Below are positions 2 to 22,955 of a stretch of 30,152 bases of DNA, one piece after another; position 1 is the stretch's first letter; every line of letters begins with the position of its first letter. The stretch lies in IMG/VR virus record IMGVR_UViG_3300002231_001581, positions 1 to 30,152 of that record. One strand, given 5' to 3'. The notes beneath the pieces were generated by a model. That model worked only from the letters and a program-made list of their open reading frames with translations. It was not told the origin of the DNA and did no database searches. Origin of the DNA: a virus. A program made the position numbers and the translations under genes.

Positions 2-1054
2 ATAGATTCTGGTGTAGTGACGTATGCAAAGATTCAGAACGTGTCTGCCACCGACCGGATTCTTGGCCGGGATTCGGCGGGAGCTGGAGTAATAGAGGAA
101 ATCACTCCTGCTAATCTCAAGATCATGTTGAGTCTCAATAACGTTGAGAACACCGCTCTTTCGACGTGGACTGGCAGTGCAAACGTTAGCACTCTCGGTA
201 CGATTACAACCGGCACGTGGAATGCCACGACTATCGATGAAGGTAAGCTCGATCTAACCCTTACAACGACGGCTCTTAATGCTTCTGGGGTGACAACAAC
301 GCTTGGGACCATAGCTGGCACACTAGACGCTGGGTCGGCCACGAGTCTTGAAGTTCCCAACAGTGCTGCGCCTACGGTTGATGCTGCCGGCGAGATTGCC
401 GTTGATACGAATCTGTTCTCAGCCGGCCAGGGTACGATCGTTGTTTATGATGGCATGACTGCTCTTAACGTTGTGACGACGACCGATACACCGGGCGATA
501 ATGAGATTCCTAAATATGATTCGGCGATAGGCACAGTGACATGGGAAGCTGATGCTGGTAGCACATCCACAATGGATGCTATTGTGTTAATGCCTGCCGA
601 CATGAATTTACCCGCGTCGAATCCTGCTACTGTTGATCTTGGTACGACGCAGCACATGATTATGTTCGATGACACAACAAACGAAAGCGGTAATTGGACG
701 AATATTCCAGTCAACAACTACCAAGGCGGAAGTCTGACAATCACAATCCAATACACAATGGCTTCTGCAACATCTGGAGCGGTCGTTGTAAAGGGTGAAT
801 TGTGGGCTATGACACCCGGCGATGCTGCTGATGTTGATACCGAGAGCTATGGTACAGCGGTGAGTACGACTGAAACTGTACCAGGTACGGCAGGCTATCC
901 GGGTAGCTTCACGATAACTTTTACGGCGGCCGCTGAACTCGATAGTGTTGCCAACGGTGATATGCTGGCTATCCGTATTACTCGCGATGCAGCGAATGTG
1001 TCAGATACCGCAACAGGCGACTTGGAAGTGAGGACCATATTGTGCACAGAGTAA
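2..1054 (+). CDS. Tail fibre protein, C-terminal part (5' truncated by window edge)
   Basis: The frame is open to the left edge, so the in-frame GTG at 17 is internal and the real start lies outside. The visible 350 residues begin with the block VTYAKIQNVSATDRILGRDS, a hallmark of phage tail-fibre shafts, followed by LGTITTGTW-type strand repeats typical of trimeric fibres. The last 140 or so residues are Ser/Thr/Gly/Ala-rich with alternating hydrophobics, consistent with a beta-sandwich tip. No intramolecular chaperone (peptidase S74) motif is seen at the C terminus. The protein should sit at the distal tail and take part in host recognition. G+C is about 50 percent, higher than most genes downstream of 4.5 kb. 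It overlaps the next gene by 13 bases. Role is inferred from family patterns; the receptor is unknown. Confidence 0.82.
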   Translation: MDSGVVTYAKIQNVSATDRILGRDSAGAGVIEEITPANLKIMLSLNNVENTALSTWTGSANVSTLGTITTGTWNATTIDEGKLDLTLTTTALNASGVTTTLGTIAGTLDAGSATSLEVPNSAAPTVDAAGEIAVDTNLFSAGQGTIVVYDGMTALNVVTTTDTPGDNEIPKYDSAIGTVTWEADAGSTSTMDAIVLMPADMNLPASNPATVDLGTTQHMIMFDDTTNESGNWTNIPVNNYQGGSLTITIQYTMASATSGAVVVKGELWAMTPGDAADVDTESYGTAVSTTETVPGTAGYPGSFTITFTAAAELDSVANGDMLAIRITRDAANVSDTATGDLEVRTILCTE

Positions 1055-3411
1055 CGGCATTTGTTGTTCTCCTGTTTGCGTCTGCGGCATGGGCCATCGA
1101 CTTCGATGGCGTAGACGATTACGTGTCGATTCCTACAACCAATATGGGGTTGAGCAATAGCAGTGCGTGTACCGTCGCACTGTGGGTGAAGAACGACACG
1201 GACAACGATCTTGACGGTTTCTTCATGCTCAACCCGTCGTCTGGCAATAACAGCTATCTGCTCTGCATCTATTTTCAAACGGATGCAAACAACAGCCTGC
1301 TTGTGACGACAAATGGCGGCGGTAGCGGTAAAGGAGCCAAACCGTCAAGCAACTTTGACGACACCACGTGGAACCACGTTGTTGTCACAAAAGCGTCGGG
1401 CACGACAGTGCAGCCCATCATTTACATCAATGGCGTATCGAATAGTGTTGCATCTTCTTCCGGCTTAACCGGTTGGGCAACGAACGTGTTGCATCTTGGC
1501 CGGGGAGTAAATGCCTCGTATTACTCGAATTGTAAAATGGAAGATGTCCGCATCTACAACCGAGTGTTGTCCTCGAACGAGATTCTATCTCTGTATGGTG
1601 CTACCAGGGCAACCGCACTAAAACGTGCACGTGGTGCATTAGCGTCTGGTTTAGTGGGTTGGTACGAGATGCATGATGCAGCCATTGGAGCGGATGTCTC
1701 TGGCACCGGGACAGTACATGATTCGACCGGCAAAGATCACGGCGACGGCATTGATGGGGCAGATGGTTCGCTCATTGTTACTGAGCCGGCGTCAAATCAT
1801 GATGCGCCACCAGCACCTCCACCGCCACCCGGCAGTAATGATCCAATACTGGCTCCCTCGTTTGCGAATCAATCAGATAATACGTGGATCAGTGTGACAC
1901 CCGGAACGATTGGCAATCGTACTGGTTGGGAGAATAACGTACTCCAGATCGCGATTGGTATCTACGATCCTGACGGCGATACGCTGTCCCTGAACACGAT
2001 TGGGTTGCCAACCGGGGCAACCTGCACTGCCGACACCGACGAATGGACTTACACCGGTTCGCTCTCATGGCTTGACGCGCAAACTCGTGAATTGTATGAC
2101 GGCAGTTCTTACTGTCACTATCTCTTTGAATGGACGCCGAGCTATACGCAGAGCGGAAATCATGTTGTCACGTTTACTGCGAGTGATGGCACGAATACGG
2201 ACGCTGAGACAATCACTATTACCATCACCGATTTAACTGCGCCTACTAGTGTGCCGGTCTGGTCCGATTTTACATACGCTGGCGCTTTTCGGTTGCCGAA
2301 GAACGATGGATATCCTGCCCCAAATGACACGTTTGCATATTCACGTGGTTATTTTGCTTTTTATCCGAGTGGCGATAGCGGGGCGGGTTCAATTTACTAT
2401 CCGGCACATATTAACAGCGACGGAAAGTTTAGCGAGGTCGATATACCGAGTCCTTTGGGATCGGGCACTGATCCGAGCACGTATCCATACGCGAGTGTTT
2501 TGCGGCCGTTCGATCTGTTGGCGGGGCCGTACGAAGCAACGATGAGTACGCGATATCCCGGCTTTCAATGGGAGACTAATGGTGTTGCCTGTATGCAGGT
2601 GCCTGGCCTGACAGGTTATCGTCTGTTTTGGATTATTCGGCGCTACTACAATACTGGCTCAGTTGATTACGAATCGCATGGTGTGTCTGATGTCGATATT
2701 GCCACTCCCAACGCGGTTGGCGTTTGGAATATCGGGCCTGGATATGACAACAATCTCTCGTCACTCTATCTGTCACCAATTGATCCGACCTGGGCTGATG
2801 CAAATATCAGCGGTTATCGCTTGCTGACTGGCGCCTCTGGTGTGGCGGGTCAAGGTACGAGTTCATTCGGTCCGTGTGCGATAGCGATTAAGCCATGGGA
2901 TGGCGTCGGTGGTTGGCCAGCAGATCAGGCCGATACGCCTGGCAAGGATCTAGTCTATTATCCATCGTCGAACAAATTTGATAATTGGAGCCAGGCTGAT
3001 CGAGCGCACGGAGCGGCCTGGGTGCAGTTTACCTCAAAGAATTGTTTTCTGGCTGTTGTCATGCGCGGGTTAGGTCCTGAGATGTATGCGAATAGTTGGG
3101 AGTATCCGTATTGGCCAGGTGGAGACCCACTGAATGGTGATCACGGTTTCCATGGAATGCCATACATGCAACGCGTCTATCTCTATGACCCCGCTGATTT
3201 GGCGTCCGTAGCTGCCGGGTCGAAGAATCCTTATGACGTTGTGCCTTATGAGAGTGCTGATATCACGGCGCGAATGACACGTCGTGCATTTCTCGCACCA
3301 AAAGCGTGTTTCGATCCTGGAGGTCGGCTGTTTATGACGGACCAACAAGGTGATTCAACACAATCGCAGTATTCTAACTACCCGGTGATTTTTGTGTGGA
3401 CTACGCCGTAA
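1042..3411 (+). CDS. Secreted LamG-like / Ig-like multidomain protein
   Basis: The GTG start has a GAGG about 8 bases upstream, inside the end of the fibre gene. Residues 1-18 form a clear Sec signal peptide (MHR, hydrophobic core, cleavage after AWA). Residues about 19-185 look like a LamG/concanavalin-type jelly roll (FDGVDDYVSIP, WNHVVVTK, GRG, MEDVRIYNRVLS). A proline-rich linker lies near 250-262. Residues about 265-395 resemble an Ig/cadherin-like domain (YDPDGDTLS, FTASDG). The remaining roughly 390 residues start with FTYAGAFRLP, a block I associate with uncharacterised secreted proteins of environmental bacteria, perhaps beta-propeller-like. No catalytic motif is recognised. Virion proteins normally lack Sec signals, so this may be exported by the infected cell, or be a surface adhesin carried as cargo. 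Composition matches the fibre gene. Confidence 0.75.
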   Translation: MHRVTAFVVLLFASAAWAIDFDGVDDYVSIPTTNMGLSNSSACTVALWVKNDTDNDLDGFFMLNPSSGNNSYLLCIYFQTDANNSLLVTTNGGGSGKGAKPSSNFDDTTWNHVVVTKASGTTVQPIIYINGVSNSVASSSGLTGWATNVLHLGRGVNASYYSNCKMEDVRIYNRVLSSNEILSLYGATRATALKRARGALASGLVGWYEMHDAAIGADVSGTGTVHDSTGKDHGDGIDGADGSLIVTEPASNHDAPPAPPPPPGSNDPILAPSFANQSDNTWISVTPGTIGNRTGWENNVLQIAIGIYDPDGDTLSLNTIGLPTGATCTADTDEWTYTGSLSWLDAQTRELYDGSSYCHYLFEWTPSYTQSGNHVVTFTASDGTNTDAETITITITDLTAPTSVPVWSDFTYAGAFRLPKNDGYPAPNDTFAYSRGYFAFYPSGDSGAGSIYYPAHINSDGKFSEVDIPSPLGSGTDPSTYPYASVLRPFDLLAGPYEATMSTRYPGFQWETNGVACMQVPGLTGYRLFWIIRRYYNTGSVDYESHGVSDVDIATPNAVGVWNIGPGYDNNLSSLYLSPIDPTWADANISGYRLLTGASGVAGQGTSSFGPCAIAIKPWDGVGGWPADQADTPGKDLVYYPSSNKFDNWSQADRAHGAAWVQFTSKNCFLAVVMRGLGPEMYANSWEYPYWPGGDPLNGDHGFHGMPYMQRVYLYDPADLASVAAGSKNPYDVVPYESADITARMTRRAFLAPKACFDPGGRLFMTDQQGDSTQSQYSNYPVIFVWTTP

Positions 3412-3431
3412 TGTGACTAAAGGACCTGCAA

Positions 3432-3845
3432 ATGAATGATAATCTGCTGCTTCAATTGGGCGTCGGTGGTATCATCGCGTTATTGGTATTGAAGTCTGTT
3501 TTCGATTTTTTGCAGACAACTAAATTTGTTAAGAACGGGCGACCTTCAGTTGAGGAGCTATTGCGCCAGGTCGTCGCAACAAACAGTGCCTTGGCAGAAC
3601 AGATGCAAGTGCTGGTCCAAGAGACGCATGATTTGTGGATGTGGCACTCGCAAACAGACGAAGAGGGCGTCAAGGTGTGGTATGTGCGGAAGTCACTTGA
3701 AAATGCAATCATGAAATTGGCAGATAATGTGGACCGCGAGATCGGCCTATTGGAAAGGCTGGACCGGCGGCTGGAGAGGGTTGAGGAGAGAATGGAAACG
3801 AGGGCTAAAAACAGGTCACGTACAGATGCTAATGCGTCGAGTTAG
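3432..3845 (+). CDS. Small membrane protein with coiled coil, holin-like candidate
   Basis: This 137-residue protein has one N-terminal membrane segment (about residues 9-26, LGVGGIIALLVLKSVFDFL) followed by a hydrophilic helical region. The last third is strongly charged with heptad-like Leu/Ile spacing (ENAIMKLADNVDREIGLLER) ending in a basic tail, suggesting a coiled coil. An AGGAC motif sits 8 bases upstream of the ATG. Size and topology fit several phage membrane proteins, including class III-like holins and XhlA-type accessory proteins, but no family-specific motif is visible. It is the first of three consecutive short genes with membrane or export signals, which suggests a lysis group. 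No endolysin is visible in the window, so the lysis role is inference. Confidence 0.6.
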   Translation: MNDNLLLQLGVGGIIALLVLKSVFDFLQTTKFVKNGRPSVEELLRQVVATNSALAEQMQVLVQETHDLWMWHSQTDEEGVKVWYVRKSLENAIMKLADNVDREIGLLERLDRRLERVEERMETRAKNRSRTDANASS

Positions 3846-3870
3846 GGTTTCTCAGGAAAGAGGTGATGAA

Positions 3871-4383
3871 ATGAAACGGGACAAAGGCGAATTGATCAGC
3901 ATTATTACCGGCACTGTGTGTGTAGCAGTGATGGGGAGCTTCCTGATTGCAGGAGCTCCACGAGCAACGCCACGGGCAAGGCCGACACACTCAATTCCGA
4001 CGGCAGTCACAAATGCAACGGGCACTGAAGAAATCATAATCGGGTATCCGACTGAATGGGACATGATCGTGCTAGATGCATTCTGGACGCAGTACCGACA
4101 ACCGGACGCGATTCCTGTTGTGGACGCCCAAGGCAATCCGGTGCTCGATGCTCAGGGCAACCCAACAACTCGTGCAGTGACTGCTGCGGACAAGGAGGCG
4201 TTTCTCCAAAAGCAGGTAACTGCTTACATGTTTGCGATCGTCGAGGCATATTTGGTTGAACACGGCGAGACGCCGACCGGAAACAGCGTGAGCGAGAAAC
4301 GTACTAGCACAAAGACTGCTCTCGATCAGCTCAAACAACTCGAAAAGGTTCACGTCAGGACGAGAAAGCAGAGGAAACCATGA
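3871..4383 (+). CDS. Single-pass membrane protein, possible inner-membrane spanin
   Basis: The ATG at 3871 is preceded by AGGAAAGAGG, an excellent ribosome binding site, so I prefer it to a longer form reaching back to 3727 inside the previous gene. The 170-residue product starts MKRDKGEL and has one membrane segment (about residues 8-27) followed by a Pro/Thr/Arg-rich stretch and a helical domain. A short internal duplication, VDAQGNPV then LDAQGNPT, lies near residues 89-104. The C terminus is basic. N-in, C-out topology and a 4-base ATGA overlap with a downstream exported protein are what an i-spanin/o-spanin pair would look like, but no long periplasmic coiled coil is evident. A neutral reading is phage membrane protein of unknown function. 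Confidence 0.6.
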   Translation: MKRDKGELISIITGTVCVAVMGSFLIAGAPRATPRARPTHSIPTAVTNATGTEEIIIGYPTEWDMIVLDAFWTQYRQPDAIPVVDAQGNPVLDAQGNPTTRAVTAADKEAFLQKQVTAYMFAIVEAYLVEHGETPTGNSVSEKRTSTKTALDQLKQLEKVHVRTRKQRKP

Positions 4384-4772
4384 AGAAGATGATGTTTGGC
4401 ATTATACTCTTGTGTGCATGCTGTGCGATTGGCGCTGACGCTCCGAAGTTGAAGCCAAAAGCTCCGGACTGGCGGGAGATGGCCGCGACGACTGAAGGGC
4501 GGGCGGTGTTGGTGATGGCATTGATTAAAGGTAATAATTTGGAGGAGATTGATGCTTTAATTGCTGAGCCTAAGTCAATCTATAAGATGTGGGATTACTT
4601 TGCACAAGTTGCTAATTTATCTGATTCTACGCCTGAGCAGAAGGCGCAACATTATTTGGGAACTTTGAAGGTACTTCATTGGCAGACAGGCCAGCAAGCT
4701 GTACAAAATGCGGCATCGCAAGAGTTTGATGCTGAAATGGGCTGGGGTGTCAAGGTACAGACAGGTAAGTAG
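4380..4772 (+). CDS. Small exported protein, possible lipoprotein
   Basis: The 130-residue product begins MKKMMFGIILLCACCAIGADA, a signal peptide. Cysteines at the end of the hydrophobic core could act as a weak lipobox (LCAC), or signal peptidase I could cut after ADA. The mature part is about 110 residues, helical and without known motif. Start and previous stop overlap as ATGA, implying translational coupling. The gene is odd in composition: its first 140 or so bases use GC-rich codons like the fibre region, while the rest changes to TTA, AAT, GAT and ATT codons like the downstream genes. This could be an old recombination joint or an assembly joint. Function unknown; o-spanin is one option given the coupled membrane protein upstream. 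Confidence 0.6.
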   Translation: MKKMMFGIILLCACCAIGADAPKLKPKAPDWREMAATTEGRAVLVMALIKGNNLEEIDALIAEPKSIYKMWDYFAQVANLSDSTPEQKAQHYLGTLKVLHWQTGQQAVQNAASQEFDAEMGWGVKVQTGK

Positions 4773-4775
4773 GCT

Positions 4776-5483
4776 ATGACTACATATACTCTAAGAGCAT
4801 TAAGTTATGAGGGAGAAGCCCTCATAGCAGAGTTGGTATCTGTTTCGGATAGCTTAGTAGGTGCTTCGTCTAGTACTACGCCTATGACAAATGCTCCTGG
4901 AGCGTATGATTTTACTTTTACTGGTTTATCTGTTACTGGGTTACATATTTTACGTGTGCTAGATAACAGTAATCCTGCTTCTCCAGGGGGATTGTTTTCT
5001 CTTTATTATGATTTACAAGATACTTTTGATGTACAATATGATCTTACTACTAAGATGCTTCTACTCATAGACGATATTAAAGCAAAAACTGACACTTTAG
5101 GAGGAGGTTCTATTGAGGTAGTGTCTCCCGTATCTATTTCGGGGGGAGAAGTAACTTTAGTTGTAGGAGCTGCTTATTATGCTGTAGATGGCAGGTCCTT
5201 AGATTTTTCTCCTGCAAATGATGGAGATTGGCCAAATTTGACGGGAGCTACTATTACGTTTAGTATAAGTTGGCGCGGGCTTCAACAGCTAGAAGTTTCT
5301 GGTGCCGTAGTAAATCCTACTACTAATAAGTTGGTGCGTGTAGAGTTATCTTCGGCTAATACTTCTTCTTTGTATCCTCATCAACCTGGACCTCAAGTGT
5401 TTGCCCTGGAGGCTGTTTTGGCAGATTCAAACAAGGTGTCTCTCATACCGGAGGGAACTGTCATAGTAATTGGAGATAATTGA
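4776..5483 (+). CDS. Probable virion beta-protein (tail or baseplate associated)
   Basis: This 235-residue protein is rich in Ser, Thr, Gly and Val and lacks signal peptide or membrane segments. Residues about 1-75 look like an Ig-like module (GAYDFTFTGLSVTGLHILRV). A short helical stretch follows (residues about 88-105, MLLLIDDIKAKTDTLGG). The C-terminal half (YYAVDGRSLDFS, WPNLTGATITFSI) resembles the N-terminal beta domain of baseplate upper proteins (BppU-like) of some siphoviruses. It begins 4 bases after the previous stop and is the first gene wholly in the AT-rich composition. It is the last gene before a strong promoter and so closes the distal-tail region. The structural role is inferred from fold-like patterns and position. 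Confidence 0.55.
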   Translation: MTTYTLRALSYEGEALIAELVSVSDSLVGASSSTTPMTNAPGAYDFTFTGLSVTGLHILRVLDNSNPASPGGLFSLYYDLQDTFDVQYDLTTKMLLLIDDIKAKTDTLGGGSIEVVSPVSISGGEVTLVVGAAYYAVDGRSLDFSPANDGDWPNLTGATITFSISWRGLQQLEVSGAVVNPTTNKLVRVELSSANTSSLYPHQPGPQVFALEAVLADSNKVSLIPEGTVIVIGDN

Positions 5484-5491
5484 TTTTCTAC

Positions 5492-5520
5492 TTGACATTT
5501 CTAATGTATTTTGGTATAAT
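5492..5520 (+). promoter_or_regulatory. Consensus sigma70 promoter with extended -10
   Basis: TTGACA at 5492-5497 and TATAAT at 5515-5520 are both perfect matches, separated by exactly 17 bases, and TG-G at 5512-5514 adds an extended -10 element. It fills the 43-base gap between the genes at 4776 and 5527. Seven bases after the -10 comes an A at 5527 that is also the A of the downstream ATG, so the predicted transcript has no leader. It should drive the exonuclease/glycosyltransferase cassette strongly from host RNA polymerase. Confidence 0.85.
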
Positions 5521-5526
5521 GGGTCT

Positions 5527-6108
5527 ATGGAAAGAGCCCTATTTACAGATGATAAAATCGTAATTTTTGACTTAGAGTTCACTGATTCTAATGAGGGCCT
5601 ACCTGAAATTTTTGAGATAGGCGCCATCAAAGTAGATAGGTCTCTTAATGTTTTATCTACTTATGATACTTTAGTTAAGCCCACTTATTTAGATAAATTT
5701 ACCCTTTATAACACAGAATTATCTTCTATAAATAGAGAAGATTTGGAGTCTTGTGGTAGTTGGCAGGACGTGTGGCGGTCTTTTGCTGCATTTACACATT
5801 TTCAACATTTAAGATTATGTTCCTGGAATGCACCTTCGGATATTTCGGTTTTACGCCAAGCTTATTCCAGTATACATATTGGATTTCCACACAATTATAT
5901 GTGTATAGAGGCTGCTACAGTATTTGATACTGGTGCAGCTTTTTTAGGTTATAGTAAGCAGAGTAACTCTTTGGATAAACTTGCAAAAGATTTTTTAGGG
6001 AAGGAGCAAGTACATAGAGCATTAAAAGATTGCTATTTGATATTGGGACTATTTAACTTTTTATTGCAGGAAGAAACGGACTGTTCCTTCAATTTACTGG
6101 AGTTTTGA
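5527..6108 (+). CDS. DEDDh 3'-5' exonuclease (DnaQ-like)
   Basis: The 193-residue product carries the full DEDDh set: Exo I FDLEFT (D15, E17), Exo II WNAPSDISVL (D105) and Exo III HRALKD (H163, D168). Such enzymes remove nucleotides from DNA or RNA 3' ends using two metal ions, acting as proofreading subunits or free-standing nucleases. It is a single-domain protein with no polymerase attached. I choose the ATG at 5527 over the in-frame TTG at 5470, because the latter lies upstream of the promoter and inside the preceding gene. The ATG has no Shine-Dalgarno sequence and coincides with the predicted transcription start. It is the first gene of the accessory cassette. Substrate and whether it serves replication or defence are unknown. 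Confidence 0.88.
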   Translation: MERALFTDDKIVIFDLEFTDSNEGLPEIFEIGAIKVDRSLNVLSTYDTLVKPTYLDKFTLYNTELSSINREDLESCGSWQDVWRSFAAFTHFQHLRLCSWNAPSDISVLRQAYSSIHIGFPHNYMCIEAATVFDTGAAFLGYSKQSNSLDKLAKDFLGKEQVHRALKDCYLILGLFNFLLQEETDCSFNLLEF

Positions 6109-6110
6109 AA

Positions 6111-6551
6111 GTGCGCTATGATCTTTCGTCTTTATCTTTGGAAGAGCGAGTGTTTTGGCATAGTAGGAGAGTGGAGAAGGAGCTGCCTGCCCATCTTTTT
6201 GTAGAACAATTTGTTTCTGCTTATTCTACTAAGATACTAGAAAATATTTTAGCTCAAGTTAGAAAAGAGCGGGCCTATTTGTCGGTACTTATTTTACTTA
6301 AAAATAACTCTAAATTTTCCGCTCTTTACGTAGAATGTGTTCAGAAGAAGAAGAAACTTAATAAACTTAGTGCTCAGAAATGTACATTACTGTGTGATAA
6401 GATTAAAGGAAAGTTTTTTAATAATCGTAGATTTCAGGCTCTTGAGGGAGAATTGCGGCAAGCAACCAGGGAGTGGGAAAATGTTCGGGGGCAGCTAAGA
6501 GAAATGTGTAAAATTTTGGGTTTAACTTGGGAGCAGTTATATGTGGATTGA
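6111..6551 (+). CDS. Hypothetical helical protein
   Basis: I place the start at GTG 6111, which has GGAG 8 bases upstream, rather than at TTG 6105 where the spacing would be only 2. The 146-residue product is highly charged and almost entirely helical by pattern, with a lysine cluster (QKKKKLNKLSAQK) and likely coiled-coil stretches in the second half. I do not recognise a family. The arrangement of a middle 'IL-charged-F-x-AL' segment resembles the protein at 7722-8213, which could mean distant kinship. It overlaps the next gene by 11 bases and belongs to the promoter-driven cassette. Codons are AT-rich like its neighbours. Confidence 0.65.
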   Translation: MRYDLSSLSLEERVFWHSRRVEKELPAHLFVEQFVSAYSTKILENILAQVRKERAYLSVLILLKNNSKFSALYVECVQKKKKLNKLSAQKCTLLCDKIKGKFFNNRRFQALEGELRQATREWENVRGQLREMCKILGLTWEQLYVD

Positions 6552-6957
6552 GTTTTTTGTGCGAAAGCTATTGAAGAGGTTGCCTAGTGTCTGGCTTCCA
6601 GTTTCTTACGGAGAAGCTTTTGACAGGTATATTATACTTTGTCTGAAAAAAGATAGATTAGGGGATAAGTTTGATGACTCTGAGTTAGTCCAGGTAGAAA
6701 AATGGCTTAAATGTCAGGGTCTTTTTGCTAAAACGTTGGAAATTCCTGAGATAGTTACGCAGACTATTTTGTTGTCACAGGTTAATGCTACTTTATGGGA
6801 CCTTGAAATACTTGCCAGGAGAGATGACCCTGTGGAAACAATTGGGGCTGTGGTTAAAGAGATTCAGGCGTGTAATGCGAAACGAGCTCTAATTAAGCGG
6901 AGCATAGATTTGTTGCTTAATTGTCCTTTTTCTGAGGTTAAAGATTACTCCGAGTGA
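6541..6957 (+). CDS. DUF6165-like protein
   Basis: The 138-residue product matches the pattern I know for DUF6165: an N-terminal 'SYGE-x-DRYIIL-x-LKKDRL' segment, a central 'LSQVNATLWDLE' segment and a late 'CNAKRALIKRSID' segment ending in an acidic 'VKDYSE'. DUF6165 proteins are small helical proteins often encoded near glycosyltransferases and surface-polysaccharide genes; their biochemical role is not established. That context holds here, with several glycosyltransferase genes downstream in the same cassette and a GT9 gene at 21819. A GGGAG lies about 9 bases before the ATG, within the preceding gene. Assignment is by motif memory only. Confidence 0.55.
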   Translation: MWIEFFVRKLLKRLPSVWLPVSYGEAFDRYIILCLKKDRLGDKFDDSELVQVEKWLKCQGLFAKTLEIPEIVTQTILLSQVNATLWDLEILARRDDPVETIGAVVKEIQACNAKRALIKRSIDLLLNCPFSEVKDYSE

Positions 6958-7322
6958 TGATTATGTTAGATACTTCTTTAAGTGTGCAGGAAAGATTTGA
7001 GTATTTACGTGAGCATCTCCCAGAGGTTGGAGATATTTTAACTTCTAAATATCCTAATGAGAAGATAGGTGTTTTTGTGGAGATTCATCCGGGGGAGGGG
7101 AAAACTTCTAGGATAATGTATGTGCATGCTTTAATAGATAGGGAACGTACTGGATGGTATTTAACTAATAATTCCGGAGGAGTGAAAGTTTTAGTTGCTC
7201 CAAGGTCTCAACAGACTCTTTGTTCTGAGGCATCAGGCAATTTGGAGAATTTACAGGTGCAGGCTGTGCGTGTTTTGAGGCGGAGTCAGAGTGGGAAGGC
7301 TTTAGTTGTTGAGGTGGTCTGA
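6957..7322 (+). CDS. Hypothetical protein, beta-rich C-terminal half
   Basis: The likely start is ATG 6957, whose A is shared with the previous TGA stop (TGATG); GTG 6954 and ATG 6963 are alternatives, and none has a strong ribosome site. The product of about 121 residues has a short helical beginning (VQERFEYLREHLPEVGDIL) then mostly alternating beta-like segments (KIGVFVEIHPGEGKTSRI, GWYLTNN, VQAVRVLRR, ALVVEVV). I recognise no family and no catalytic motif. It ends in a TGATG overlap with the next gene, so the two are probably translated together. Confidence 0.6.
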   Translation: MIMLDTSLSVQERFEYLREHLPEVGDILTSKYPNEKIGVFVEIHPGEGKTSRIMYVHALIDRERTGWYLTNNSGGVKVLVAPRSQQTLCSEASGNLENLQVQAVRVLRRSQSGKALVVEVV

Positions 7323-7717
7323 TGGAAGAACTCAGAGTTAGGTTTTATACTTCTAAAGAATTGCCTAGAGAAATTAGAGGTTCTTTTAGGTTTGAAGAAG
7401 ATCCTTACCTCATGAAAGAAGGTAGTAATACTTATAAGTATCTTCTTGATTTAGAAGTAATTCATTATAGAGATAGTAAACATAGTGCTGGAATTATTTT
7501 AGCGCAACATGTTGAAGGAGACCTAGCTTATCTATCGGACGTTATTTTGGATGTAGATTCTTTTACTGTAGCTAAGTGGAATTTTGCAGATACTTTTAAG
7601 GGAAAGCAGCGAGAGTCTGAAGTAGTAAAACAACGCGGAGATGTTTTTGCTTGGTTAATTTGGAATAAGCCGGGCACGCTGACTGTAGTTGCCGATGATT
7701 CGGTTATATTTAGGTGA
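7322..7717 (+). CDS. Hypothetical protein
   Basis: This 131-residue protein starts at an ATG sharing its A with the stop of the gene before, with GAGGTGG just upstream as ribosome site. The sequence alternates charged and aromatic residues in a mixed alpha/beta pattern (YKYLLDLEVIHYRDSKHSAG, LAYLSDVILDVDSF, FAWLIWNKPGTLTVV). No membrane segment, signal peptide or known motif is visible. It sits in a run of small unknown genes between the exonuclease and the glycosyltransferases. No function can be assigned. Confidence 0.6.
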   Translation: MEELRVRFYTSKELPREIRGSFRFEEDPYLMKEGSNTYKYLLDLEVIHYRDSKHSAGIILAQHVEGDLAYLSDVILDVDSFTVAKWNFADTFKGKQRESEVVKQRGDVFAWLIWNKPGTLTVVADDSVIFR

Positions 7718-9424: not shown

Positions 9425-10207
9425 ATGAGTATTTCATATTTAATTCCTGCTTGGAAAAAGCCCTTTATTTATTTGAGACTTGCCTTGGCTAGTCTCAGAT
9501 GTTGGGATAACTGCTCCGAAATAGTGGTAATTGGTAAGAGTTGCCGGGGAGAGGAAGAAGAATATACTAGGTTAATTAAAGAGTATAGTACTACTTTTTA
9601 TGAAGTAGTAAGTATGCCCATTTTTAGTAAGGCGCAGCTTTTGAATGCTGCTTTCAAGAGAAGTAGTGGACAATTTGTGGTTATTTATGACGCAGATTTC
9701 GTGGCTACTGAGAGGTTTGTGGGGTATTTGTTTGAGCATTCTTTTGCTGCGATGAATTACAGCCAGTGTAGGCTTTCCAAGGAAGCTTCAAAGATCCTGC
9801 TTAAAAATTACTATATTGAGGGTTTTCCTGGTGCTTTGCGTAAAAAGTCCTACGGCTCTCCTCCTGTAAAGGGGCTGTATAGTTATGCTTCTACAAGTCC
9901 TCCTACGATATTATCACGGGAGGTGTATGCGGAAATAGGGGGTCTATGTGAGAAGATAGTTGGGTGGGGTTCCGAGGATACTGATTTATGCTGGATGCTT
10001 GAGCAACGTGGATATACACCTAGAAAATACCGAGAAGGAATAAAGGATGCCTTTGTATATCATCTGTGGCACGAGGGCCGGGGAGTGGGGAAGAGGCTAG
10101 CATCTAGTGTTAAAATGCAGAGAAGAAAGAAGATGCTAGCCGGAAAAATTTTACAAGGTAATTTAGAAGACTGGGGTAATTTATGTGTAGTTCCACTTGC
10201 GACATAA
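9425..10207 (+). CDS. Family 2-like glycosyltransferase (GT-A fold)
   Basis: The 260-residue product has a GT-A layout: an N-terminal 'ISYLIPAWKKP' strand, a DxD motif in VVIYDADF (D89, D91) for metal and sugar-nucleotide binding, and a GWGSEDTDLCWML segment (residues 180-192) matching the acceptor-side 'GWGGEDxDL' motif of galactosyltransferase-type (Glyco_transf_7C) enzymes. A basic C-terminal helix follows. It should transfer a sugar from an NDP-sugar to an unknown acceptor. No Shine-Dalgarno sequence is visible before the ATG, unlike most neighbours. An NDP-sugar epimerase at 11852 could supply its donor. Family placement is good; the donor and acceptor are not known. Confidence 0.8.
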   Translation: MSISYLIPAWKKPFIYLRLALASLRCWDNCSEIVVIGKSCRGEEEEYTRLIKEYSTTFYEVVSMPIFSKAQLLNAAFKRSSGQFVVIYDADFVATERFVGYLFEHSFAAMNYSQCRLSKEASKILLKNYYIEGFPGALRKKSYGSPPVKGLYSYASTSPPTILSREVYAEIGGLCEKIVGWGSEDTDLCWMLEQRGYTPRKYREGIKDAFVYHLWHEGRGVGKRLASSVKMQRRKKMLAGKILQGNLEDWGNLCVVPLAT

Positions 10208-10416
10208 TGTATGACAGTGATTTTTTGCATATTTTGCGAAAAATAAATGGTGAAGTTGGCGGGAGGGGGCTAGATAACCGATTGTATATTTCATGTCCAA
10301 AACATCCTGGAGCACCTTCTAAGGTTTATTATGAAGATGGTTCTTTGGTGGTAATTTGTAGTCTGTGCAAGACTAAATATTTGGTGGCAGCCGTGGCTGG
10401 GGGAGAGTCGTCATGA
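10183..10416 (+). CDS. Small zinc-ribbon protein
   Basis: A protein of up to 77 residues with a CPKH at residues 38-41 and CSLC at 59-62, spaced as a zinc ribbon with short beta segments between (SKVYYEDGSLVVICS). Two starts are possible: ATG 10183, with a G-rich stretch upstream but a 25-base overlap with the glycosyltransferase, or ATG 10207, which shares a base with the preceding TAA. It overlaps the following gene by 4 bases. Small zinc ribbons of this kind often bind nucleic acid or serve as protein adaptors; here the role is unknown. Confidence 0.6.
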   Translation: MCSSTCDIMYDSDFLHILRKINGEVGGRGLDNRLYISCPKHPGAPSKVYYEDGSLVVICSLCKTKYLVAAVAGGESS

Positions 10417-11855
10417 GATATTTGCTGCTGCCTCGGATAAAGATTACGGATGGTACGGATAGTTTTACTCTAGATCCTATGAACTTGATTAAGTATTTTT
10501 CGGAATTTGATCCAAATGCCTATTTTTATTTGTGTGTGCACGAGAAACATTGTGAGGATACCTCTTGGATACTTAATTATGGTATTACAGTAGAACAGGC
10601 TAAAAAAATTTGTTTTGTTCCTATGGAGCATTGCTATTTAGGATCGGTGAATCGCTGTGGCCGAAGAGCTTCTTACGGGTATTTGTCTGCACTCGCGGCT
10701 AAAATCGGGCCGAAGGATAGATATGGACAGTACTTGGATGTAGTAATTTCTGAGTCTTTGGTGGGAGTAGAGATATTACGAGCTAAAATAGAGGGCTTAT
10801 GGCAGAAAGGATATACTTATAGGGTGCCTTTTATTGGCTGGGTTCATTGGAATCCTGTTCCTTCTTGGTATACTTCGTATTACAATGAATTTGATGCTTA
10901 TTCTGAGTTAGTAGGAGGGCTATTTTGTGATGGCTTAGTATTTGGGTCATTACGGCAGCAGGATGACTTTTTTACGGAGTATACTAAATTTTTTAACGCT
11001 TCTACTTTGGAACATTTACAAAATAAAAGTATTGCGTCAAATTTGGGGGTGGAAGTAGAAAAAATTAAGAGAAAGAAAGAGTTTTCTGCTCTTCCTACTG
11101 TGTTATGGAGTGGCTATGCATCAGAGGATCTGTCTAGTGTAAAAAAGCCCTTGATTAAACTGGCGGGACTGGGGAAGATTAAGGTGATTTTTCAATTTAT
11201 AGACAAAGACTTGCCCAAAGATGCGGAGGAGGTGCGGGGGCATAAAAATGTAAAAGTAGAAGGCCGGATAGCTCCTTATGGAAAATACTTAGAATTTTTG
11301 AATAAAGCAGACATATTTGTAGCTCTGTCTCAGAATATTAAGCGTTTGACTTATGGTCGGCGTTGGGGGGAGATGATAGCAGCAGGATTGTTGCCTATTG
11401 TATCACGAGATATTGCAGCTACTTTTCTTCCAGAAGAGTACCCTTTTGTGTTAAGTCCTAGGGGAGATTTAGAGGAGCTACTTAGAGCAGCCCTGATGTG
11501 TAAGAAGGCCCAAAAGAAAAGCCTGCTTGATGAAGTATATGCTCATTTAGTAGAGCATCATTTCATTCGGAAAACTTTGAGGCAATTTTATGGGTTTGTG
11601 TGTTCTAAGGTAGCAGAAGCCCGGAAGGGAGTAGATTATGGAGTGCTTGAGGAGTCTTTTGTTGAAGGATTGGGGGGAAGAGCTAAGATAACGCATTCAG
11701 AAGCAGTAGAGGCCGTAGGGCAGTGCATGCAGTCTCCTCTAGGAATAGCGAAGCATTCTATGTACTCTTCTAGGTATATTCGGGCAAGTATTCTTCATCA
11801 GGGGTATTGTGATATTGGCGGGCAGGAGCCTATTTACGTTAGGGCGGAAGCATGA
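10413..11855 (+). CDS. GT-B-like glycosyltransferase with extra C-terminal domain
   Basis: The 480-residue protein has a GT-B-like plan: a variable N-terminal half (acceptor side) and, from about residue 225, a Rossmann-like half beginning PTVLWSGYAS. It ends in YGRRWGEMIAAGLLPIVSRD followed by YPFVLSP, which corresponds to the donor-site region of GT4-type enzymes, where a Glu and 'A-x-G-x-P-V' are conserved. After about residue 424 comes an extra segment (KITHSEAVEAV, then SRYIRASILHQGYCDIGG) that recurs at the end of the protein at 12820-14283. A GGGGGAGAG precedes the start, which overlaps the zinc-ribbon gene. Donor and acceptor are unknown. The enzyme class is inferred from the C-terminal half. 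Confidence 0.65.
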   Translation: MRYLLLPRIKITDGTDSFTLDPMNLIKYFSEFDPNAYFYLCVHEKHCEDTSWILNYGITVEQAKKICFVPMEHCYLGSVNRCGRRASYGYLSALAAKIGPKDRYGQYLDVVISESLVGVEILRAKIEGLWQKGYTYRVPFIGWVHWNPVPSWYTSYYNEFDAYSELVGGLFCDGLVFGSLRQQDDFFTEYTKFFNASTLEHLQNKSIASNLGVEVEKIKRKKEFSALPTVLWSGYASEDLSSVKKPLIKLAGLGKIKVIFQFIDKDLPKDAEEVRGHKNVKVEGRIAPYGKYLEFLNKADIFVALSQNIKRLTYGRRWGEMIAAGLLPIVSRDIAATFLPEEYPFVLSPRGDLEELLRAALMCKKAQKKSLLDEVYAHLVEHHFIRKTLRQFYGFVCSKVAEARKGVDYGVLEESFVEGLGGRAKITHSEAVEAVGQCMQSPLGIAKHSMYSSRYIRASILHQGYCDIGGQEPIYVRAEA

Positions 11856-12823
11856 AAATACTAGTGACCGGCGGTGCGGGGTTTATTGGGTCTCATCTAT
11901 GCAATCGCTTGCACTCTCAGAAGCACGCGGTGGTAGCTTTCGACAATCTTTCGGGGGGAAGGAGGAGTAACTTAAATTCTAAAGTACCTTTAATTGTAGG
12001 AGATATTAGAGACAGGTGTCTGGTAGATAGTTTGGTTGCTGAGCATGAGTTCGATGTAGTTTATCATCTAGCTGCTTATGCGGCGGAGTGTCTTAGTCAC
12101 TGGATACGTTATTACAATTATGAGGTAAATTTGCTTGGAAGTATAAATATTCTAAATGCGTCAATTAAGTATGGCGCCAAGAAATTTATATTTACCTCCA
12201 GTGCCGCTGTTTATGGTGATATTGAGACCCCATTTAAGGAAACAGATACTCCTTGTCCAATCGATCCCTATGGCATAGCCAAGCTGGCTGTCGAGAGAGA
12301 TTTGGCTTGTGCTAATGCTATTTTTGGGTTGGATTATACTATTTTTAGATTGCATAATGTTTTTGGTCCTAGGCAGTCTACCGTAGATAGATACCGTAAT
12401 GTTATCGGTATCTTTATGCACAAGCTTGCTAAAGATAAGCCATTGCCTGTTTTTGGTTCTGGTATGCAAACTAGATGTTTTACTTATATAGATTACGTGA
12501 TTGATGCATTTTTGGCTGTACTTCATAGAGACGTTCAGGCCAGGGTGATTAACCTAGGCTCGGATGAAGAGTGTGCTATAATAGAGCTCGCTAGTAAGAT
12601 GTGTGATATTTCAGGTAAACTACGGCACATGGAATTTTTACCCGCTAGGCATGAAGTACCTGCGGTTAGATGTGATCATTCTTTAGCCTATGCTCTTTTC
12701 GGAGCCCCTACGATTTCTTTTGAAGACGGTTTACGGGAAACGCTGTCTAAAATAGAGACTGGCCAAGTCTCTAAATTTTATGGTTTAGAGCTTACAGAGG
12801 GCTTGCCTGAGAGTTGGAAATGA
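11852..12823 (+). CDS. NAD-dependent sugar-nucleotide epimerase/dehydratase (extended SDR)
   Basis: A complete 323-residue extended short-chain dehydrogenase. It has the dinucleotide-binding TGGAGFIGSH (residues 6-15), DIRD, YHLAA, the FTSSAAVYG serine region and the catalytic YGIAK (Y140, K144), then the RLHNVFGPRQ and FTYIDYVIDAF segments typical of UDP-glucose 4-epimerase relatives. It interconverts or dehydrates an NDP-sugar in the cytoplasm. GalE-like is the closest guess, but the exact substrate cannot be read from sequence. It lies between two related glycosyltransferase-like genes, overlapping both by 4 bases, so it most likely provides their donor sugar. Confidence 0.88.
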   Translation: MKILVTGGAGFIGSHLCNRLHSQKHAVVAFDNLSGGRRSNLNSKVPLIVGDIRDRCLVDSLVAEHEFDVVYHLAAYAAECLSHWIRYYNYEVNLLGSINILNASIKYGAKKFIFTSSAAVYGDIETPFKETDTPCPIDPYGIAKLAVERDLACANAIFGLDYTIFRLHNVFGPRQSTVDRYRNVIGIFMHKLAKDKPLPVFGSGMQTRCFTYIDYVIDAFLAVLHRDVQARVINLGSDEECAIIELASKMCDISGKLRHMEFLPARHEVPAVRCDHSLAYALFGAPTISFEDGLRETLSKIETGQVSKFYGLELTEGLPESWK

Positions 12824-14283
12824 CTAGAGTTTTATACATTCCTCATACATCTTCTCCTGAGAGATTGGTTACTGATCATTGTTATGGTTGGGCTACCTCA
12901 TTCTTTAGGACGTGGTTGGACAAAGAGCCTTATTTGAATTTATATTGGCTCGTTCCTCGGGGTGCTCCTGTAAAACAGCGCGAGGTTTTCTCATGTTTTT
13001 CAGGGAAGGAGTTAAGAGAAAGAGTTAAGTTAATAGAGGTAGATACTAACATTACCCAGGTGCTGGAGCAGTCTACATATCCCCAAGAGTTGATCAGAGA
13101 CTTTAATGCTAATAACGGAAAATACTACTTTGATATTTTATTTTGTGAAAAGCCTAGTATTTTGGGGTGGTTTTTTAACAATGCTGTGATATATGCTTAT
13201 CGAAGGAAGGCGATTACCGTAGTATTAAATGTGCATTATGCAATTAACAGCAAGGATAATATATCAGTAGCTGAGGAGTTTGAGGCGTCTTATTATGCAA
13301 ATGCCGCTTTTGCTAATGCCTATCTTTTCTGTAATGATCCACGTGCTAATATAGATTCTCAATCTAGCTTGGCTCTTCGCTTGAAGAAATATTTTGCTCC
13401 TTCAAAAGTGAGCGATATGTTGGCCAAGCCCAATTGGGTAAAAATAAATTCAGATATTCCTGCTTTACAAAAATTGGCCGAGAAGCGAGATATTTCTGGA
13501 GATGAATTTAGAATTCACTTTGGATTTAGCATAAGTAACTTATTTAATTTCAAAGTGCTCCTGAAGTTTTTCTCTTCTTTTAGAGTGATATTACCGTTGA
13601 AGTGGGTGATTACTACTCCCAGTGGTAGTTTGGGCCGGGGAGGAAAGAAGCCTGAAGAATGGCTGGAAGTGCATTTGGAGTGTCCACGAGAAGAATTTTT
13701 TCGTATAGCTCTGCGGAGTCATTGTTTTGTGTGCTGGCCTTCTGTGTTTAGCTCTGGCTTGAATCACGGAGGAGTAATGGAAATGGCTCGTTTGGGAGTT
13801 GTACCTGTATTTTACAGTAAAGCATTGCCCTGGCCCTGGTTTGAGCTATGGCCTGATTATCCGTTTCAATTTTCGGGAGAAGAGGAGTTAGCTGCTTTAT
13901 TGAAGTATATTAAGGAAAATTTCGGGGGAGAGAGGGTTAAAGAAACAGCAAGAAAAAGTCAAGAAATAATAGATCATGTCTTTGAGGAGAGAGGACACCG
14001 ATTCATTATTGATCAGGTAACTGCTTTACAGGAGAAAGCTCCGAAGTATGCTTATAATGCCTTCTCTGCATTGATACATCATTTTCCTCATAGAATAACA
14101 ATGCGGGATGCGGTGAAGGTTATCAAAGAGGAGTCTGATACTTCTAAAGATTTGGATAAAGTGACGTGGGTAACTTGGTTTAAGACTGGCACAAAGTTGG
14201 ATTTGCGTCAGTATATGTTATCTCATGGCTGGCGGGATATTGGAAACGTAGATAGCGTGGTATTTGAGCGTGTAGATGGTTAA
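12820..14283 (+). CDS. GT-B-like glycosyltransferase with extra C-terminal domain
   Basis: The start at ATG 12820 overlaps the epimerase stop (ATGA); a TTG at 12814 is less likely. The 487-residue protein has a GT-B-like plan, with a segment HCFVCWPSVFSSGLNHGGVM followed by EMARLGVVPVFYSK and YPFQFSGEEELAALL. This aligns by eye with the region FVALSQ ... GEMIAAGLLPIVSRD ... YPFVLSP of the protein at 10413, so the two look like divergent paralogs. The last 63 residues (RITMRDAVKVI ... DLRQYMLSHGWRDIGNVDS) repeat the C-terminal domain of that protein. Substrates are unknown. The pairing around an epimerase suggests successive steps in building one glycan. Confidence 0.6.
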   Translation: MTRVLYIPHTSSPERLVTDHCYGWATSFFRTWLDKEPYLNLYWLVPRGAPVKQREVFSCFSGKELRERVKLIEVDTNITQVLEQSTYPQELIRDFNANNGKYYFDILFCEKPSILGWFFNNAVIYAYRRKAITVVLNVHYAINSKDNISVAEEFEASYYANAAFANAYLFCNDPRANIDSQSSLALRLKKYFAPSKVSDMLAKPNWVKINSDIPALQKLAEKRDISGDEFRIHFGFSISNLFNFKVLLKFFSSFRVILPLKWVITTPSGSLGRGGKKPEEWLEVHLECPREEFFRIALRSHCFVCWPSVFSSGLNHGGVMEMARLGVVPVFYSKALPWPWFELWPDYPFQFSGEEELAALLKYIKENFGGERVKETARKSQEIIDHVFEERGHRFIIDQVTALQEKAPKYAYNAFSALIHHFPHRITMRDAVKVIKEESDTSKDLDKVTWVTWFKTGTKLDLRQYMLSHGWRDIGNVDSVVFERVDG

Positions 14284-20766: not shown

Positions 20767-21765
20767 ATGCCTATTGACATCAAACTTCCTTTGGAAGAGA
20801 TGGTCAGTAAGTCAGCTATCGATGCTACTTCCTTGCCTAATTCTATTTTGAATCGGCAACAAGTATTAAGATTTATTGACTTGGTGATTGACTACTCTGT
20901 TCTGTTGAAGCGAATTAGAGTAGAGAAAGTTAATGCTCCAAAAGGCGAGCGGGCTAAGTTGGATCTTGGTAATATTGTTACTGAGGGTGCTAGCACTACG
21001 AGCATAGCAACTACACGCACGCCTACTGAAGCGGTAGTTTCCTATGATCTTGTGAAGTACCGAAGTGCTTTTGATCTTCGCACCGATTTCTTAGAAGATT
21101 CGATTGAAAAGGCGCAGGCTCGTGATACGATTCTCAATATGTTTACAAAACGTATTGCGATCGACAGTGAGCTTGCTGCTATTCAAAGTGATAATTCCTT
21201 GACAGTCGGTGACGGTCAGACTGATAGCAACAATTTGCTTGGAGTGAATGACGGATTCACTCAAACTTTGGTTGATAATGTTCCGTCAGCTCAGCAGATT
21301 GATGCGGCGGGAGCTGCTCCTTCTACGGCATTGTATTATGCTATGAAGAGAGCAGTTCCTGCTCGTTTTAGAGTTGCTAAGCCTGATTATGTTTGGATTG
21401 CTCCTTCGGGACCCGCTGATAAGCACTTGCTTGATTGGTCAACTAGAGCTACTGGAGGTGGCGATGTTGCCTATGAGACTGGTTTGCGTCCTGGACCGTG
21501 GGGTATAAAAATGCTTGAAGTTCCTTTGATGCCTGAAGATTTGTCTTATGGCACATCTGGAACTGATGGCTCTCAAATCTGGCTCTCGCCTTTGAAAAAC
21601 TTTGTGTATTTCATTGGACGCGCGGTTACAATCGAATGGAGCCGTGAGCCTCGTCAGGACATGTGGCAATCTACTATTCATTACCGTGTTGACTTTGAGA
21701 TAGAAGATCCGAATATGGTAGTTATCGCTAAGAACGTTGCTATGTCTGGGAGTGACTATAGCTAG
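20767..21765 (+). CDS. Major capsid protein
   Basis: The 332-residue protein has features of an HK97-fold capsid subunit: an N-arm and first helix (LNRQQVLRFIDLVIDYS), a beta hinge with TEAVVSYDLVKYRSAFDLR, a spine-like helix (IEKAQARDTILNMFTKRIAI) and a final P-domain strand with TIEWSREPRQDMWQSTIHYR. GGAG is upstream of the ATG. Position after the protease is decisive. Its G+C is clearly higher than its flanks (about 48 percent in two lines counted by hand) with more CGN arginine codons, as expected for a highly expressed gene. There is no long cleavable N-terminal domain, so the scaffold is probably supplied by the protease fusion. Confidence 0.88.
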   Translation: MPIDIKLPLEEMVSKSAIDATSLPNSILNRQQVLRFIDLVIDYSVLLKRIRVEKVNAPKGERAKLDLGNIVTEGASTTSIATTRTPTEAVVSYDLVKYRSAFDLRTDFLEDSIEKAQARDTILNMFTKRIAIDSELAAIQSDNSLTVGDGQTDSNNLLGVNDGFTQTLVDNVPSAQQIDAAGAAPSTALYYAMKRAVPARFRVAKPDYVWIAPSGPADKHLLDWSTRATGGGDVAYETGLRPGPWGIKMLEVPLMPEDLSYGTSGTDGSQIWLSPLKNFVYFIGRAVTIEWSREPRQDMWQSTIHYRVDFEIEDPNMVVIAKNVAMSGSDYS

Positions 21766-21774
21766 CTCCTCTCA

Positions 21775-21811
21775 GGGGTAGTCCGGGAAAGGATTGGCGA
21801 CTACCCCTTTT
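21775..21811 (+). terminator. Rho-independent terminator after the capsid gene
   Basis: GGGGTAGTC at 21775-21783 and GACTACCCC at 21799-21807 form a perfect 9-bp stem around a 15-base loop, followed by TTTT. The T-tract is short and interrupted (TTTTATGTCTT), so it may be leaky. It ends transcripts after the capsid gene and would set lower expression for the genes that follow. Confidence 0.75.
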
Positions 21812-21818
21812 ATGTCTT

Positions 21819-22955
21819 ATGTTTAACTATATATCTGATATGAAAGAGCCTGCGAATCATTACTTTGAGGGAGCAACTTCTGTTTGTGCTAAATGTTTTG
21901 GTGGAGTAGGAGATGTCCTGATTTCAATTGGAAGTACTGCTGCTAAATATGGAAATATTACTGCTGCGGTTAAGCCTAGTCAGTACGAACTTATTAAGCA
22001 TATTGAGGGAGTTAATGAAGTTATCTCAGTAACTGAGTTAAACTCTCCTGAAGTTAGAAGTAAGTATGATGTTCTGATAAATTTTGACTTCACTTTTAAT
22101 ACTCTGAAGACTCTAAAGGGAGAAGATTATTATACTTTAGTGGCACGAAAATTGGGCGAAGATACGGTTACTCCGGGAAAACTTTTAGCACAGAAATGTC
22201 AGACAGAGCTTATTGCTGCTATTCATCCGAGTGCTAGTAATCCTAACAGATTGTGGAAAGACAGTAGATGGGATCAGGTTGCTTATCATTTAGCTTCCTG
22301 TGGATTGGATGTAGTTTGGTTAGGTACGAAAGATGAATATGGTTTTAATGATTATACTAATGGAATTTACTGTTTGAGTGATACGACTGAAGATTTATTG
22401 GGACAAGTCCAGTTTTTAGCTAAATGTTCTTACTTTTTGGGAGTAGATTCTGGTTTTGCTCATGTTGCGGGACTTCTAGGCGTGCCGGGTAAAGTACTAT
22501 TCTTTAATACTGAAGCAAGACATGTGATAGCTCGGTATTCTACTTTATTTGGAATAGATGCCTATAAAGGGGAAGTTCCTACTAGAAGTCTTGATCCAGA
22601 AGATAAGTTTTCTAGAAAGTATGCTAAAGACCTTTCTGTAGATGATGTTATTGATGAGTTACCTTTTCAACCACGAGAAGAGAGGGCTAAGTTAATTAGA
22701 CTTGCGAAGAAAAAAGGTAGGCATGTTGTTCATGTTTCTGGAGATGGAGAAAGAAACAATAAGTGTATTCGATACTTACAGAAATATTTTGATCTTGTAG
22801 ATGGTTATAGTGATAAAGGAGTGAATCTTATCTTTGGCTTAGACGAGTGTGTTTTAGACAGCCCTAGCTGTAGTGCTCGCGTACAGGCTGATGAGCCTGA
22901 GAAAGTTAGATATGCTATAAGAGAGTTTTTTGCTATGGGAGATATTGATGGCTAG
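21819..22955 (+). CDS. Glycosyltransferase family 9 (heptosyltransferase-like)
   Basis: The 378-residue product has GT-B features of family 9: an N-terminal glycine-rich GGVGDVLISIGS (the 'GDxL' motif), IHPSASNPNRLWKDSRWDQV, and the donor-site block YFLGVDSGFAHVAGLLGVPG. Family members add heptose or related sugars to lipopolysaccharide core and to some proteins. Two starts are possible, ATG 21819 or ATG 21840, neither with a ribosome site. The last 75 residues are an extra, unassigned module. Location between the capsid and a probable decoration gene is unusual and suggests capsid- or virion-directed use, though cargo is also possible. Donor and acceptor are unknown. Confidence 0.8.
   Translation: MFNYISDMKEPANHYFEGATSVCAKCFGGVGDVLISIGSTAAKYGNITAAVKPSQYELIKHIEGVNEVISVTELNSPEVRSKYDVLINFDFTFNTLKTLKGEDYYTLVARKLGEDTVTPGKLLAQKCQTELIAAIHPSASNPNRLWKDSRWDQVAYHLASCGLDVVWLGTKDEYGFNDYTNGIYCLSDTTEDLLGQVQFLAKCSYFLGVDSGFAHVAGLLGVPGKVLFFNTEARHVIARYSTLFGIDAYKGEVPTRSLDPEDKFSRKYAKDLSVDDVIDELPFQPREERAKLIRLAKKKGRHVVHVSGDGERNNKCIRYLQKYFDLVDGYSDKGVNLIFGLDECVLDSPSCSARVQADEPEKVRYAIREFFAMGDIDG

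Follow-up and report, generated by a model that had tools for sequence, protein, structure and literature searches.

A consensus extended -10 promoter abuts the start codon of a phage exonuclease gene and predicts a leaderless message

The window, by which we mean the whole 30,152-nt stretch of viral DNA analyzed here, carries an intact gene for a DEDDh 3′-5′ exonuclease directly behind a promoter-like sequence (Table 1). The predicted protein matched PF00929 (RNase_T; 2.5e-21, 77.4 bits, cut-off 24) and the PHROG family phrog_192, “DNA polymerase exonuclease subunit” (1.8e-23), and all of the DEDDh motifs (D-E, D and H-D) were present, with D15, E17, D105, H163 and D168 invariant in an alignment with the proteins of relatives. 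No phage relatives were found for the gene immediately upstream. Behind the exonuclease gene, 3′ of which we found no good terminator, the overlapping genes mostly carry Shine-Dalgarno (SD) sequences, and homologs of genes 6105–7322 keep this order behind the exonuclease in one related phage, G001, and largely also in two others, G003 and G007. The window belongs to a tailed phage, with terminase, portal, protease, capsid and tape-measure genes downstream of the exonuclease, and this phage is distant from everything in the phage records searched.

Several other features of the window were recorded. Third-position GC changes from about 0.5 (17–4772) to about 0.3 (4776–30152), with the boundary at 4772/4776, where GC skew rises; the genes to the left of this boundary encode a LamG tail-fibre-like protein and short membrane or signal-peptide-like proteins, and together they resemble a host-interaction and lysis module that has been exchanged. 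Directly after the capsid gene (20767–21765), a hairpin formed by GGGGTAGTC and GACTACCCC and followed by TTTT (21774–21812) is likely a terminator, and gene 21819 (glycosyltransferase family 9) begins a few bases past it without an SD. Sugar genes lie within or beside the structural region (9425–14283 and 21819–22955), comprising a glycosyltransferase-like gene at 9425, an NAD-dependent epimerase gene at 11852 and the glycosyltransferase gene at 21819.

Table 1. Features at and around the exonuclease gene (positions in the window)
Feature	Position	Strand	Remarks
Upstream gene	4776..5483	+	Stops 8 nt 5′ of the promoter
SD-like GGAGGG	5450..5455	+	14 nt before TTG5470; -10.6 kcal/mol
Alternative in-frame start TTG	5470..5472	+	Adds 19 aa; not favoured
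-35 element TTGACA	5492..5497	+	6/6 consensus match
Extended -10 TGG TATAAT	5512..5520	+	TG (5512-5513) plus 6/6 (TATAAT 5515-5520)
Discriminator GGGTCT	5521..5526	+	6 nt, T at -1; pyrimidine at -1 typical of the class
Predicted transcription start, A of the start codon	5527	+	7th base after the -10; population test
DEDDh 3′-5′ exonuclease gene	5527..6108	+	193 aa, intact; Pfam PF00929, phrog_192, catalytic residues
Four downstream genes (6105, 6541, 6954, 7322)	6105..7717	+	Overlapping or abutting head to tail

The initial annotation had described TTGACA and TATAAT elements at full consensus, 17 bases apart and with TG before the -10, and had placed the A of the exonuclease ATG seven bases past the -10. 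Both descriptions were accurate: the match is 12/12 at 5492–5520, with TTTCTAATGTATTTTGG as the 17-nt spacer, and the A lies at 5527. Six bases separate the -10 from the ATG (5527–5529), with a T/A step at -1/+1, and this distance falls within the 6–8 nt by which a leaderless gene with a sigma70-type promoter is recognized; an AUG start and the lack of an SD, both found at the exonuclease gene, are likewise marks of leaderless genes. The promoter sits in a 43-nt intergenic gap, and no other site in the whole 30,152-base record has fewer than two mismatches. Under a second-order Markov model, 0.005–0.01 sites matching at 12/12 with a 17-nt spacing are expected per 30-kb window on both strands, and when the TG is included the expectation, as a product estimate, drops below 0.001 per window. 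At the other gene starts of the window, no sequence in the leaderless geometry scored above 8/12. No convincing terminator was found 5′ of the promoter, and an Rfam search gave no match. Middle and late phage promoters of the SPO1 type have the form AGGAGA-N17-TTTNNNTTT or CGTTAGA-N18-GATATT; neither motif is present in the window, and this identity was rejected.

We scanned IMG/VR viral contigs for perfect extended promoters, and the counts that follow are samples among the matches listed. ATGs at the same gap of 6 were compared with control ATGs at gap 12, a spacing that leaves little room for an SD, and a frame of at least 60 codons was scored as open. Among the matches listed, 75/137 gap-6 ATGs opened such a frame vs 28/104 at gap 12 (p = 1.5e-5), and with stricter removal of duplicates the counts were 74/136 (55%) vs 28/104 (27%; p = 2.3e-5), while 8% of nearby ATGs in other frames did so. 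A pyrimidine occupied -1 in 85% of the gap-6 sites vs 38% of the gap-12 sites among the matches listed, an excess that would be expected of transcription beginning at the A. In a sample drawn blind to the ATG, gene starts were commonest 25–40 bases downstream of the promoter, that is, with leaders, and about 3% of the promoters had a gap-6 ATG, a number near background, with 4/4 of these opening at least 60 codons (again among the matches listed). Since gap-6 ATGs more often open long frames and more often follow a pyrimidine, genes that start without a leader behind a perfect promoter seem to form a genuine minority class; the support for this is statistical and falls short of proof for the 5527 site. 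Family tallies among the matches listed often returned DNA polymerases, 5′-3′ exonucleases, ligases and UvsY for genes in the leaderless geometry, with a more mixed leadered set, which hints at frequent replication functions among the leaderless-geometry genes of viral contigs.

Searching viral contigs for exact peptides of the exonuclease, the terminase and one other protein returned no relatives, nor did a search of genome contigs with the exonuclease. An alignment of the terminase proved too divergent, and the portal led to relatives at just 24–29%, whose fetched DNA held no exonuclease match. The capsid protein yielded seven relatives (62–68%), and G001, G003 and G007 were used for the exonuclease comparison. 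G001 (102 kb) has 12 promoter sites with no more than one mismatch; they all lie on the coding strand, from 2 to 94 kb, and a reversed control gave 0; the remaining six relatives have one such site or none each. Because these near-perfect sites range so widely, a promoter of this kind marks no single timing class, and the suggestion in the initial annotation that it is early or constitutive was not supported.

The initial annotation had also proposed asking whether the promoter–ATG spacing is kept in related phages, and we found that it is kept at the exonuclease of none of the relatives. G001 has a perfect extended promoter 397 nt 5′ of the exonuclease ATG, separated from it by a small SD-led gene, and its exonuclease has an SD-like AAGGG of its own; in G003 and G007, no promoter of at least 10/12 was found within 600 nt of the exonuclease, and a strong terminator-like hairpin (z -4.9 and -5.5) with a U-rich tail lies directly before the exonuclease ATG (minus strand, about 2052), which has no SD. 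Given the upstream promoter in the first and the hairpins in the other two, what is kept among the relatives is likely a transcription boundary just 5′ of the exonuclease unit rather than the spacing. Two further promoter sites in G001 also show the gap of 6 before an ATG. The first leads into an ORF of at least 175 codons; at the second (2305–2450), the perfect extended promoter is followed by a frame of 21 codons, and the stop of this frame overlaps the start of another, 68 codons long, possibly a leaderless leader peptide with coupled translation. In G003, two small genes (48558 and 49129, minus strand) have TATAATCAGGRCATG and adjoining sequence in common, with weaker -35 elements.

Upstream, the exonuclease frame stays open as far as a stop at 5467, which leaves two possible starts, TTG5470 and ATG5527. 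At the ATG, the best SD duplex reaches -3.3 kcal/mol at a 2-nt spacing, in line with the earlier claim that an SD is missing; the accompanying claim that almost all other genes have good ribosome sites holds for most of them (about -5 to -12 kcal/mol), with genes 9425 and 21819 as exceptions that also lack an SD. Translation from TTG5470 on a read-through transcript, using the GGAGGG upstream to give a 212-aa protein with the promoter motif inside the coding region, would draw on a strong SD-like sequence, on a TTG that overlaps the end of the upstream gene, as many genes here do, and on the lack of an upstream terminator, which makes read-through conceivable. However, 14 nt is a long distance from SD to start, and the 19 extra residues (LEIIDFLLDISNVFWYNGS) have nothing similar in G001, G003 or G007, whose exonucleases are 37–38% identical. 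In these three, 5–11 residues precede the conserved V-[IV]-F-D strand with no common N-terminal extension, and further phage homologs start, by their annotation, 3–17 residues ahead of the aligned region; a longer N-terminus conserved through the promoter, which the initial annotation had named as contrary evidence, was thus looked for and not seen. The TTG start would also leave a 12/12 extended promoter ending exactly at an ATG unexplained, and we consider it quite unlikely. Because relatives and homologs start near the first strand and lack such an extension, ATG5527 is likely the exonuclease start, judged by sequence comparison. We also considered, and dropped, a weak hairpin that read-through RNA could form around ATG5527, as this start is among the more accessible ones.

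It could instead be that the promoter is real and mainly serves the downstream cluster, with little leaderless translation of the exonuclease and with the overlapping genes dependent on ribosome sites of their own. The conserved order of these mostly SD-bearing genes would suit this arrangement, as would G001, in which the promoter first serves the small SD-led gene; yet service to the cluster is compatible with a leaderless start, and the population test indicates that gap-6 ATGs do open real genes, so that we regard poor translation of the exonuclease as unlikely. That the consensus match arose by chance and has no promoter activity seems very improbable: the region is AT-rich (37% GC), but the low expected number applies before the TG, the intergenic position and the ATG spacing are required, and G001 bears many such sites, all on one strand.

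We therefore favour, with good though incomplete confidence, a genuine extended -10 promoter that yields a leaderless exonuclease message and a transcript running into the cluster. Transcription would start at A5527, presumably with the host’s main sigma factor, on the assumption of sigma70 use; the exonuclease mRNA would begin with its own AUG, a ribosome would bind this 5′ AUG directly, and the same transcript would continue through the overlapping genes behind. The leaderless mRNA foreseen by the initial annotation is still a prediction, and we judge leaderless expression likely because of the geometry, the T/A at -1/+1, the comparison of start codons with relatives and the population test; a 5′ end a few bases off A5527 would give a short leader. 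The exonuclease gene is the first in a cluster of overlapping genes that is conserved among relatives, so the promoter probably serves the whole cluster, and the proposal that the gene is expressed apart from the late operon found no support, with no good terminator behind the gene, overlapping genes next to it and their order preserved.

Most of the few well-known leaderless phage messages come from repressor genes. In the telomere phage PY54, the cI and cro mRNAs are leaderless, RACE having placed their 5′ ends at the AUG (PMC4488713), and lambda cI transcribed from PRM is cited there as a leaderless phage mRNA. Our site resembles these in having a phage promoter with the start codon, as predicted here, at +1, no leader and no SD. 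The lambda and PY54 cases are repressor genes of temperate phages, whereas ours is a DNA exonuclease that heads a gene cluster and whose leaderless message is predicted. TA-led leaderless bacterial genes have a -10 box about 12 bp before the start codon and, in low-GC genomes, a TG before the -10 (PMC3160421), and our site shares both the distance and the TG; those genes are cellular and were found by their -10 signal, whereas this gene is viral and its -35 is perfect too. The exonuclease is thus another, predicted, member of the established leaderless phage mRNAs.

The single site at 5527 is ordinary biology. More tentatively, and as something less likely than not, we suggest that perfect host-type promoters ending exactly on a start codon recur in metagenomic phages as a selected layout, serving DNA-metabolism genes (polymerases, exonucleases, ligases and UvsY) and not mainly repressors, unlike the textbook examples. 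Together, the site and the survey suggest that phage DNA uses this layout repeatedly, and perhaps often for replication genes; if so, it would bear on gene calling, where starts lack an SD, and on how phages keep their replication genes translated while the host initiation machinery is disturbed.
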